The translations under genes were made by a program, and so were the position numbers. This document shows, piece after piece, positions 2,249-58,613 of a DNA stretch of 64,000 bases (its first letter is position 1; each line of letters starts with the position of its first letter). The notes under the pieces were generated by a model. The model was not told the origin of the DNA, did no database searches, and saw only the letters and a list, made by a program, of their open reading frames with translations. The DNA lies in assembly GCF_028618525.1 (NCBI RefSeq), contig NZ_JAQITC010000001.1:186001-250000 (forward strand), read 5' to 3'. Origin of the DNA: Bartonella sp. AU55XJBT (GTDB lineage Bacteria > Pseudomonadota > Alphaproteobacteria > Rhizobiales > Rhizobiaceae).

Positions 2249-3022
2249 ATGGCTAATTTTAAAAATTTACGTTCAACGCCTGCTTCTCATGCTGATGCAT
2301 CGATTGATCAGGGATTGCGCGACTATATGTTGGGTGTTTACAATACAATGGCCATTGGTTTGCTTATTACAGCTGCTGCTGCCTATGCAATTGTATCATT
2401 AGCAACGACAACAGATATGAGCCAAGCAGCAGCTCAGATCAATAGCAGTGTTTATTTGACATCATTTGGAGTAACATTTTATACATCGCCGTTCTCTTAT
2501 ATTGTGATGTTTGCACCACTTGTTGCAGTTTTATTCCTCAGTTTTAAAATTAATACATTAAGTACCAGTGCTGCTCGTAGTCTCTTTTTTGGTTATGCTG
2601 CTTTAATTGGGCTTTCACTGTCTTCAATCGTTTTACGTTATACGACAGAGAGTATTGTACAAACTTTTGTTATTTCCGCTGCAACTTTTGGAGCTCTTTC
2701 ACTTTATGGATATACAACAAAGCGTGATCTTACAGCAATTGGTTCGTTCTTATTCATCGGATTGATTGGCTTGTTGCTTTCTATGGTTGTGAATATTTTT
2801 CTTGGATCAAGTGCTTTGCAATTTGCTATCTCCATTATTGGTGTTTTTATCTTTGCTGGTTTAACAGCTTACGATACTCAAAACATTAAGTTGATGTATT
2901 ATGAAGGGGATCAAGGTGATACCAGAGGTCGTAAAGTCATTATGGGCGCATTGAGTCTTTATCTTGATTTCATCAATATGTTTGTCTTTTTGCTACAATT
3001 TCTCGGTTCAAACCGTGATTGA
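2249..3022 (+). CDS. BI-1/YccA (Bax inhibitor-1) family membrane protein
   Basis: An integral inner-membrane protein of the TMBIM/UPF0005 family. Bacterial relatives include E. coli YccA, a modulator of FtsH proteolysis, and Bacillus YetJ, a pH-sensitive calcium leak. From the start chosen here it has about 257 residues and seven hydrophobic segments. It carries the conserved C-terminal YDTQNIKLMYYEG and LYLDFINMFVFLLQ. The frame is open back to a GTG at 2129, which would add a 40-residue hydrophilic N-terminus. ATG 2249 is preferred because it follows AAAGGA by about 10 bp and begins with the usual Met-Ala. A strong intrinsic terminator follows, so the gene looks monocistronic. The substrate is not known. 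Confidence 0.88.
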   Translation: MANFKNLRSTPASHADASIDQGLRDYMLGVYNTMAIGLLITAAAAYAIVSLATTTDMSQAAAQINSSVYLTSFGVTFYTSPFSYIVMFAPLVAVLFLSFKINTLSTSAARSLFFGYAALIGLSLSSIVLRYTTESIVQTFVISAATFGALSLYGYTTKRDLTAIGSFLFIGLIGLLLSMVVNIFLGSSALQFAISIIGVFIFAGLTAYDTQNIKLMYYEGDQGDTRGRKVIMGALSLYLDFINMFVFLLQFLGSNRD

Positions 3023-3044
3023 TTGCAAAAATCATCGCTTAATG

Positions 3045-3086
3045 AAAGAACCTTGTTTCTAAAAGAGACAAGGTTCTTTTGTTTTT
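3045..3086 (+). terminator. intrinsic terminator after the BI-1 gene
   Basis: AAAGAACCTTGT (3045-3056) pairs perfectly with ACAAGGTTCTTT (3068-3079) across an 11-nt loop, and is followed by TGTTTTT. It lies 22 bp after the BI-1 stop codon. Confidence 0.85.
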
Positions 3087-3134
3087 AGTGTAAGTTTTTA
3101 TCCTTTACCTTTTAGGAATTATTCTTTTCGTACA

Positions 3135-3998
3135 ATGACAAAAATGCCTTACAAGCAAAAACTCCCTTGGTTTAGTGGTTTTATTCAACAAAAGCTCCAT
3201 AACACCCTTTTAAAGGCAATCCATAGCCGTTCTCATCATCCATCAAATATCCTCAACCAAAATAATCATTATGATCTGACCGTTGCTTCCTATAATGTGC
3301 ATAAATGTGTAGGTGTTGATAAAATTTTTAATCCTACACGGATTGTCCGTGTTATCACTGAATTACAAGTTGATATCCTTGCTCTTCAAGAAGCAGATAA
3401 ACGTTTTGGAGAACGTATTGGTTTGATTAATCTTCAGCTGTTAAAAGCTGAAACCGGTTTGATCCCTGTACCTCTCAATACTATGTCACCTCATGGTCAC
3501 GGTTGGCATGGAAACGCTCTCTTTTTGCGAAAGGGATATGTACGTGACACTTTACAAATCTCTCTTCCTGGTATTGAACCACGTGGAGCTATCATTGTAG
3601 AGTTAGAAATGACAGCAGGCCCTATTCGTATTATTGCGGCTCATTTTGGCTTATTACGTTATTCTCGTAAACAACAAACAAAAATGCTCCTTGCAATTTT
3701 GCAAAAACGCTCCCTTATGCCTACACTCCTCATTGGAGATTTTAACGAATGGCGAATGGGAAAAGGCTCATCTTTAAACCATTTTTATCCCTATTTTAAT
3801 AGCACACTTGAAGTTGTACCAAGCTTTCCCTCTCGCTTTCCCTTTTTAGCCCTTGATCGCGTTTTTGCCTTTCCTCACCAATTGGTAACAAATCTTGAAA
3901 ACCACTATTCACCACTTGCACGCATTGCCTCAGATCATTTGCCAATCAAAGCTTATCTTAATCTTGCTAATGCAATAAACATCCTGAAAAATAAATAA
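3135..3998 (+). CDS. endonuclease/exonuclease/phosphatase (EEP) family protein
   Basis: A 287-residue member of the metal-dependent EEP fold, which includes exonuclease III, DNase I and inositol phosphatases. Family motifs are in order: SYNVH (Asn metal/phosphate ligand), LALQEAD (metal-binding Glu), the central HG.GWHGNAL loop, IGDFNEW (catalytic Asp and Asn), and SDHLPI (C-terminal Asp-His). There is no signal peptide, so it is probably cytoplasmic. The sequence does not say whether the substrate is nucleic acid or a phospho-ester. It ends 6 bp from the convergent polA gene. Confidence 0.85.
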   Translation: MTKMPYKQKLPWFSGFIQQKLHNTLLKAIHSRSHHPSNILNQNNHYDLTVASYNVHKCVGVDKIFNPTRIVRVITELQVDILALQEADKRFGERIGLINLQLLKAETGLIPVPLNTMSPHGHGWHGNALFLRKGYVRDTLQISLPGIEPRGAIIVELEMTAGPIRIIAAHFGLLRYSRKQQTKMLLAILQKRSLMPTLLIGDFNEWRMGKGSSLNHFYPYFNSTLEVVPSFPSRFPFLALDRVFAFPHQLVTNLENHYSPLARIASDHLPIKAYLNLANAINILKNK

Positions 3999-46016: not shown

Positions 46017-46400
46017 TTAAAATAATAACAGTGATTCATCCTTACAGAGGATGGGGTTTTTTTCTTCTGGGTCTTTAAGAATATCATAAAGTGTTACTTC
46101 TTTATTTTTCTCCCACCAGATATAATGCTCCCCCACATATTTTGCTCCAGAAGCGGCAATAACATTTGCAGCAATAATACGATCGTCTTTCCATTTGAAA
46201 TCAACCAATGAAATATCGTCAGCGTTGTGATAAGTTGCTTCAATGCGTTCTTTATTTGTTCCCATATCACATTGATAGGTTATGGTTTGCGTTTCTGGAT
46301 TACCTGACACTTCAATGACTAAAGCAGCAGCTAAGCTACTGCTGACATTGAAAAATAATGAAAAGGAAAAAAATCCTAAAATTTGTAGAGTTTTTTTCAT
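46017..46400 (-). CDS. periplasmic MliC-like lysozyme-inhibitor protein, copy 1
   Basis: The 127-residue exported protein has a signal peptide (FFSFSLFFNVSSSLAAA) and a domain largely identical to its neighbour, including both Cys and SGAKYVGEHYIWW. The conserved Trp-Thr-Lys-Gly of MliC is changed here to Trp-Glu-Lys-Asn, so its inhibitory loop may differ. It lies 18 bp upstream of copy 2 and just downstream of the tRNA-Arg gene. Confidence 0.77.
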   Translation of the reverse strand: MKKTLQILGFFSFSLFFNVSSSLAAALVIEVSGNPETQTITYQCDMGTNKERIEATYHNADDISLVDFKWKDDRIIAANVIAASGAKYVGEHYIWWEKNKEVTLYDILKDPEEKNPILCKDESLLLF

Positions 46401-46439: not shown

Positions 46440-46746
46440 TGGTGTCTACGGCAGGATTCGAACCTGCGACCCCAGGATTCATACCACTTCGGTTTTCACC
46501 GCCAACCTTATATCGGCTGTTTGTGGTCTGGACTGTCTCTTCACCTTGAAGCTTGCGCCTTTTAGGTGCTGCCCGTTCAGTCTCTACACCTTCCTCTCAT
46601 GTGAAGAGAGGCTTGGCTCGGGATTGGCATATCGTTTTGCCCATGAAGCTTTCCCCGAATTTGAGCAGATCCACTTTAAGGATTTCTCCTAAAAGCGCCC
46701 AATTTCTTTAGGAATCCTGTGCTCTATCCTACTGAGCTACGCAGAC
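46440..46746 (-). tRNA. tRNA-Arg(CCU) interrupted by a group I intron
   Basis: Exon 1 (46710-46746) starts GTCTGCG, forms the D arm (GCTC/GAGC) and ends CAGGATTCCT. Exon 2 (46440-46479) continues AATCCTG, then the variable loop, the T arm GCAGG-TTCGAAT-CCTGC, acceptor CGTAGAC, and an encoded ACCA end. Joined, they give a 77-nt tRNA with a 7-bp acceptor stem (one G-U) and anticodon loop TTCCTAA, hence anticodon CCU (Arg, AGG codons). The intron splits the loop just after the anticodon. Standard tRNA scans may miss the gene. Confidence 0.93.
46480..46709 (-). other. group I self-splicing intron (230 nt) in tRNA-Arg(CCU)
   Basis: Boundaries obey the group I rule: the upstream exon ends in T and the intron ends in G. 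The catalytic core is readable. Element P, AAATTCGGGGAAA (intron nt 48-60), pairs with element Q, AATCCCGAGC (85-94), through TCGGG/CCCGA (P4). GGCA/TGCC closes P5 and CCTCTC/GAGAGG closes P6a. Element R, AGAGACTGAACGGG (125-138), pairs with element S, AAGAGACAGTCC (169-180), through GACTG/CAGTC (P7). There is no homing-endonuclease frame. It is of the small IC3-like type known from the same tRNA in Agrobacterium. Confidence 0.92.
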
Positions 46747-46806: not shown

Positions 46807-47940
46807 TTAACGAATTTCTGTTAATTTTTGTTCCAAAAAGGATAAAACTGCATCTGGTGAAACATTTTTTGCAATAAATGATTGGCCAAGTCCGCGTGTC
46901 AAAATAAAAGTCAAATTATTTTGTGACACTTTTTTATCTTGAGCAAGGAGAGTCATTAATGTTTCAGCATCTGGTAGACGTCCTGGAATATCCTTTAATT
47001 GCGTAGGTAAACCTACAGCTTTAAGGTGTGTTTCGATGCGATGTAGGAGTGTGGGGTCACATAGATTCAGTTGTGCAGAGAATTGATGGGCGAGAATCAT
47101 CCCAATTGCTACAGCTTCACCGTGAATTAAACGCTTGGAATCATAAGCGGTTGCTGTTTCAAGCATGTGTCCAAAGGTATGACCAAGATTTAAGAGTGCA
47201 CGCTCTCTTGTTTCGTATTCGTCACGGGCGACTATGGCAGCTTTAAATTGGCATGAGCGAACAATGGCTTCTATTCTTATCGCGCCATTAGAAAAAATTT
47301 CTTGCCCGTTTTTTTCAAGCCATTCAAAGAAATCAGGCTGGTTAATGAGTCCATATTTAACCATTTCCGCATAACCTGCACGAAATTCACGTGGTGGGAG
47401 CGTATCAAGAACAGATGTATCAGCAATAACGCATTGCGGTTGATAAAAAGCACCAATAAGATTTTTACCATAACGGCTGTTGATGCCTGTTTTTCCACCA
47501 ACAGAGGAATCAATTTGTGCAAGAAGCGTTGTGGGCATCTGAATGAAGTTCATTCCGCGGCGGATCATACTTGCTGCAAATCCTGCTAGATCTCCGATGA
47601 CACCGCCACCAAAAGCAATCACACAGTCACCTCTTTCTAAGCGTGCGGCAAGAATTTGGTCTATGATAGTTTGCAAGGTTGAAAATGATTTTGATTGTTC
47701 TCCTGCTTCTACAATGATAGGGACAGTGTGGATTTTATTTTTTGTTAACTCTGCTTGTAATGGATCTAAATGGAGAGGTGCTACATTTGTATCGGTAACA
47801 ATTGCTAAACGCGTTTGATGAAAATTTTTTTTCTGAAGAGAATGCTTAATTTGTAAAGCAGCTTGCGTAATAAGATCTGGACCAATGATGATATCGTAAC
47901 AGTGCTTGTCTAATTTTATGGTGACGGTTTTGGCTTGCAT
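46807..47940 (-). CDS. aroB: 3-dehydroquinate synthase
   Basis: AroB cyclises DAHP to 3-dehydroquinate with transient NAD oxidation. The 377-residue protein has the NAD-binding [33 protein letters not shown] with the metal and substrate ligands, EMVKYGLI, and the metal-binding His in NLGHTFGH and [11 protein letters not shown]. It follows aroK by 17 bp in the usual aroK-aroB pair. Confidence 0.96.
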
Positions 47941-58538: not shown

Positions 58539-58613
58539 TGGAGCGGGCGATGGGATTCGAACCCACGACCCCAACCTTGGCAAGGTTGTGCTCTACCCCT
58601 GAGCTACACCCGC
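58539..58613 (-). tRNA. tRNA-Gly(GCC)
   Basis: On the minus strand GCGGGTG pairs with CGCCCGC (one G-U), with D arm GCTC/GAGC, anticodon arm CAACC-TTGCCAA-GGTTG (anticodon GCC), T arm GTGGG-TTCGAAT-CCCAT (last pair G-T), and an encoded CCA at 58539-58541. The gene is 75 nt with CCA and has no intron. Confidence 0.96.

Follow-up and report, generated by a model that had tools for sequence, protein, structure and literature searches.

A protein-less group I intron directly after the anticodon of a Bartonella tRNA-Arg(CCU) gene

Introduction

Group I introns interrupting tRNA-Leu(UAA) genes are known from cyanobacteria. Introns in the tRNA-Arg(CCU) genes of alphaproteobacteria are said to have been described by Reinhold-Hurek and Shub in 1992 and by Paquin et al. 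in 1999, first in Agrobacterium.

Within Bartonella, an intron named BbgpI interrupts tRNA-Arg(CCU) of Bartonella bacilliformis. According to Wachter et al. (2020, PMC7717549), it is spliced in vivo and is self-splicing in vitro, and its RNA first drew attention as a small RNA expressed at high levels under multiple conditions.

Here we describe the corresponding gene in a stretch of 64,000 nucleotides from Bartonella sp. AU55XJBT (the window), where an original prediction made from the letters alone had placed a tRNA-Arg(CCU) gene split by a group I intron. The intron is almost certainly a ribozyme without a protein, lying directly after the tRNA-Arg(CCU) anticodon and splicing to leave a normal tRNA, and an old insertion that has been passed on mostly vertically.

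Results

A split tRNA-Arg(CCU) gene missed by default scans

With introns allowed, ARAGORN found tRNA-Arg(cct) at c[46440,46746] on the minus strand. The spliced tRNA has 77 bases with an encoded CCA, and the 230-nt intron (46709-46480) lies at tRNA position 38, directly 3′ of the anticodon. The coordinates and the 77-nt spliced tRNA given by the original prediction were exact to the base. The gene is made up as follows.

46710-46746, minus strand: 5′ exon of tRNA-Arg(CCU), 37 nt, ending in the anticodon CCU (ARAGORN intron mode; terminal CCT invariant in 72 rows)
46480-46709, minus strand: group I intron, 230 nt (RF00028, ARAGORN intron mode, covariation)
46440-46479, minus strand: 3′ exon of tRNA-Arg(CCU), 40 nt, CCA encoded (ARAGORN intron mode)

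The gene is flanked by aroB (46807-47940, minus strand) and a small open reading frame (ORF; 46017-46400, minus strand). A promoter search upstream of the tRNA gave one 9-of-12 match, against a mean of 3.2 in shuffles of the region.

Assignment to the group I family, also part of the original prediction, was confirmed by covariance search: cmscan of the 64-kb window gave a match to Rfam RF00028 at 46719-46517 on the minus strand (63.1 bits, gathering score 50, E 1.2e-13). A custom core model (R1), trained on 34 rows that include genus rows and RF00028 family matches, scored the window intron at 147.5 bits, the window being one of those 34 rows. The coding capacity of the intron is at most 76 residues, as 230 nt leaves no room for a longer protein.

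The original prediction was that automated annotation may overlook this gene, and default scans did so. ARAGORN with default settings missed it and listed only tRNA-Gly at 58539-58613 in the window, and the Rfam tRNA model, run with cmscan at its gathering score, called no tRNA at 46440-46746.

Core structure, covariation and splicing

Helices were drawn by eye from the window and then checked on an alignment of the genus with 72 rows, 71 of them distinct. The main elements, in transcript order, are these.

46698-46704, minus strand: internal guide AAUUGGG (P1 and P10 pair in the window and, unvaried, in 71/71 distinct rows)
46672-46697, minus strand: P2 hairpin with a GAAA loop (changes on both sides in 7/11 pairs; 89.3% of cells paired)
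46663-46668, minus strand: P3 5′ strand, partner 46569-46574 (window drawing and genus alignment)
46654-46658, minus strand: P4 5′ strand, partner 46618-46622 (invariant)
46618-46622, minus strand: P4 3′ strand (window drawing and genus alignment)
46578-46582, minus strand: P7 5′ strand, partner 46531-46535 (invariant)
46569-46574, minus strand: P3 3′ strand (window drawing and genus alignment)
46531-46535, minus strand: P7 3′ strand (invariant)
46480, minus strand: final G of the intron (invariant in all 72 rows of the alignment)

Helices P5, P6, P6a, P8, P9, P9a and P9b were also drawn in the window. In P1 the GGG of the guide pairs with the exon CCU, leaving a U-G pair at the splice site, and P10 is formed by the AUU of the guide and the bases that open the 3′ exon. 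P3 (six pairs) and P7 (five pairs) form the pseudoknot, and P4 has five Watson-Crick pairs. The pairings of P4 and P7 had been called perfect, and all five pairs of each are indeed Watson-Crick; the rule of an exon U and a terminal G likewise holds, with U closing the 5′ exon and G closing the intron in every one of the 72 rows. Membership of group I is marked by the model score, by a P3-P9 core with the P3/P7 pseudoknot, and by the exon U-G pair together with the terminal G. The intron may belong to subgroup IC3.

Among the 71 distinct rows, pairing holds in 96.3% of 4821 cells. Changes on both sides were found in 26 of 68 pairs, compared with a mean of 18.3 in shuffles that ignore relatedness, none of 500 being as high. 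When the partners were slid, 29.0-45.5% of cells were paired, a comparison in which the drawn structure has an advantage because it was taken from one row of the alignment. P1, P4, P7 and P10 are invariant across the 71 distinct rows; this fits catalytic parts, and means that these helices yield no covariation signal. The peripheral helices P2, P5, P6a, P8 and P9a are variable and mostly keep their pairs, P2 having one mismatch in the window and two inner pairs that are broken in 32 and 36 of the 71 rows. At no column conserved in 90% or more of the rows does the window deviate. The 72 rows contain 20 variants of the spliced tRNA against 71 distinct introns.

By analogy with the B. bacilliformis intron, the 230-nt intron very probably cuts itself out. 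P1 would bring the CCU at the end of the exon together with GGG of the guide; an external guanosine occupying P7 would attack after the exon U, the freed 5′ exon would then attack after the terminal G, and joining of the exons would give the normal 77-nt tRNA-Arg(CCU). We infer in this way both the splicing chemistry and the activity of the window copy. The copy in B. bacilliformis Ver097, which is not necessarily the strain of PMC7717549, was used for base comparison; it is 230 nt long and 85.0% identical to the window intron, with one exon mismatch (locus L276). Since splicing is described for B. bacilliformis in PMC7717549, and Ver097 carries its copy in the same tRNA, we regard this mechanism as close to certain in the window.

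Presence and inheritance in Bartonella

The intron was present in all 71 genus genomes searched, always in tRNA-Arg(CCU) and directly after the anticodon. RF00028 matched 70 of the 71, once in each. Genome G003 was considered as an intron-less genome and rejected: its locus carries the intron, with a score of 53 bits that had been lost to stricter filters. Genus introns are 220-278 nt long, and ARAGORN typed all 71 host genes as tRNA-Arg(CCU). A pattern built from genus rows matched 33 named stretches, all from Bartonella, and the intron also lies on a contig of Bartonella elizabethae F9251. Retention in a reduced genome, to which the original prediction had drawn attention, is therefore true of this genome and is no peculiarity of it: an intron shared by all 71 genomes points to an old, fixed insertion.

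The aroB gene of the window is closest to that of genome G001 (95%), which has 30% of sampled words in common with the window, and within the genus the window lies near B. elizabethae. Flanks of 1.5 kb were available for 31 genus loci: all 31 had a match to the small ORF and 29 had one to aroB, near full length at 25. At the other six loci (L032, L034, L035, L036, L039 and L048) the 1.5-kb flanks held no near full-length single aroB match, with fragments in four and none in two; this may reflect decay of aroB in some Bartonella.

Intron distances were compared with aroB distances in 26 rows, namely the 25 loci with near full-length aroB and the window. The two sets were correlated (Mantel r 0.848, with 0 of 5000 permutations as high), for a sample that leaves out 46 of the 72 genus rows, including 40 loci without long flanks and, among these, the most divergent introns. 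In the same 26 rows the intron has a mean p-distance of 0.090, that of aroB being 0.169. As far as tested, then, the intron appears to be mostly vertically inherited in the genus. It would have been inserted in the genus ancestor or earlier, and inherited mostly vertically afterwards. Where no intronless copy of the tRNA is available to recombine with, exact deletion would be the sole way to lose the intron, and this would be why it is kept. We infer that no special function is required to explain why a small genome keeps it.

Related introns in the family and class

R1 matched 67 of 394 genomes in the family sample, eight of them in the genus, and RF00028 matched 38 of 394, a gain that is partly by construction because RF00028 matches and genus rows were used in training R1. 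The 68 places found in the family comprise 44 in tRNA-Arg(CCU), 36 of which are outside the genus, and 22 in tRNA-Leu(UAA). In the class sample R1 matched 50 of 385 genomes, at 57 places besides that in G001; 51 were fetched and six left out. For some rows ARAGORN gave a wrong anticodon (His, Ser, Stop, Phe); these were recoded by exon motifs, after which two of the 68 family and 12 of the 51 class loci were without a resolved tRNA type. By raw ARAGORN calls, 15 of the 51 class loci (L168-L196, L235-L256) were typed as other tRNAs (Thr, Lys, Leu-CAA and others). One family genome, G372, has two core matches, L203 (G372:C11) and L234 (G372:C3), one of which is weak (62.5 bits) and lacks a tRNA call.

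The core tree was built from 88 sequences and 144 columns, after 11 resolved rows with their core off pattern had been dropped; 19 of its 84 inner branches are starred. One branch (92/89, unstarred) unites 38 of 39 other Arg rows with all 15 genus rows in this set of 88 rows and 144 columns. The next branch (95/82) consists of 12 Leu rows, including two plasmid copies, and the other side of the tree of 22 Leu rows and one Arg row, L226. Four changes are needed for the 15 genus rows, which came together as a group in none (0%) of 200 bootstrap trees; the starred branches force only one change. As the genus rows are not grouped, the tree alone is no proof that the genus gained the intron once. 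Their scatter goes against a simple single gain; our reading is that the columns may be too few, or that the insertion may predate the genus and be shared with family kin. The common insertion site and gene neighbourhood argue for inheritance.

Plasmid introns matched by R1 lie at 2948-3246 of NC_004464.2 (pCTX-M3; L062), 1111-1410 of L063 and 2522-2652 of L137 (core), with 133.5-137.1 bits, L062 being an R1 training row. In these three records the host gene looks like tRNA-Leu(UAA), carries no tRNA annotation and is near aac(3)-IId. The window intron was matched by 1272 of 72,556 plasmid records, of which three were inspected. Over 472 bases, the plasmid tRNA with 167 bases upstream of it has 87.5% identity to L159, a contig from a genome of the window's family, a hint that the plasmid segment may have come from an alphaproteobacterium. 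A related intron (L290, 1879-2190; 238 nt by ARAGORN, 105.2 bits with R1) interrupts a tRNA-Lys(UUU)-like gene close to the integrase gene of Gordonia phage Daredevil (NC_048021.1), and the host tRNA-like gene has no annotated feature. The phage introns observed up to 2014 were all in protein-coding genes, according to Hausner et al. (2014).

Recent horizontal arrival in Bartonella, with a plasmid or phage as a conceivable source, could be suggested by the existence of such introns in tRNA genes of plasmids and one phage, and by the failure of the genus rows to form one group in the core tree. Against it, the insertion site is identical in 71/71 genomes, the same small ORF adjoins in 31/31 loci with aroB matched in 29/31, the intron distances follow those of aroB in 26 rows, and the plasmid copies belong to a different tRNA and to a different branch of the core tree (95/82). 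We consider recent arrival extremely improbable and retain the reading of an old insertion with mostly vertical descent.

Decoding of AGG

In G001, the nearest genome compared, 30 of 37 tRNA matches were typed, and the Arg anticodons are UCU, CCG, ACG and CCU, the last with the intron. A search for a second tRNA-Arg(CCU), put forward in the original prediction as a check, found none among the 30 typed matches; the other seven are 80-88 nt long, longer than tRNA-Arg(CCU). When the 71 genus genomes were queried with the spliced tRNA, the best matches listed were half matches (1-39 or 38-77). The longer matches listed were 83-86% identical with partial query coverage and are presumably other tRNAs. 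As far as seen, the split gene is the sole CCU gene in this sister genome.

A tRNA-Arg(UCU) may read AGG by wobble. That of G001 is a possible second AGG reader, so that the CCU tRNA is not surely the sole one, and the suggestion that it may be the only AGG-decoding tRNA was not borne out. AGG accounts for 32 of 872 Arg codons in 49 window ORFs, 20 of which contain it (minimum ORF length 150 aa, with three overlapping ones dropped).

These figures bear on whether the intron might have decayed and lost the ability to splice, so that the tRNA would be a pseudogene and AGG would be read by tRNA-Arg(UCU). The presence of tRNA-Arg(UCU) in G001 and the rarity of AGG in the window ORFs would suit such decay, which is nevertheless hard to reconcile with the constraint on exons and core across the 72 rows, with T-stem differences among spliced forms that retain pairing in several variants, and with a mean p-distance below that of aroB in the 26 rows. 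The B. bacilliformis intron, moreover, splices (PMC7717549). Decay is accordingly highly unlikely, and an active intron is the preferred reading.

It was also suggested originally that self-splicing is a possible control point. An intron that splices could in addition be a regulator, its splicing rate or abundant excised RNA controlling the translation of AGG-rich genes, or could have a small RNA role. Such a function would be in keeping with the high expression of the B. bacilliformis intron RNA under multiple conditions (PMC7717549) and with the occurrence of the intron in 71/71 genus genomes, yet P2, P5, P6a, P8 and P9a vary and mostly keep their pairs, and splicing alone accounts for the constraint. 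We think regulation of this kind very improbable, and equally so a second role acquired by the excised RNA, whether it served as a stable small RNA or sensed, through the rate of splicing, how much tRNA-Arg(CCU) is supplied. The idea of a control point found no support, as the high expression described in PMC7717549 is silent on control.

Discussion

The window intron is already known in kind and in genus, and is an ordinary member of a known family. As an intron has been published with splicing in B. bacilliformis (PMC7717549), the one direct precedent that literature searches gave, the copy described here is best regarded as real and ordinary within that family.

What it adds is in part a point of annotation. 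Default scans miss this tRNA gene, which is present in 71/71 genus genomes, and tRNA counts and analyses of codon supply in Bartonella should therefore include it. The locus also offers a case in which a ribozyme intron has a patchy distribution in the family sample but is universal in the genus genomes searched, with inheritance that is mostly vertical as far as tested.

Compared with known systems, the window intron is nearest to BbgpI (PMC7717549), which is in the same genus, the same tRNA-Arg(CCU) and the same site at the anticodon, and differs in species. The tRNA-Arg(CCU) introns of other alphaproteobacteria share the tRNA and the site, 36 of the 60 non-genus family matches being typed as tRNA-Arg(CCU); they are sporadic outside the genus in the family sample, whereas within Bartonella they were found in 71/71 genomes. 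The tRNA-Leu(UAA) introns (22 of 68 family matches) have a similar core, but their exon ends in CUU, the guide GAG replaces GGG in most of the rows listed, and they occupy other branches of the core tree.
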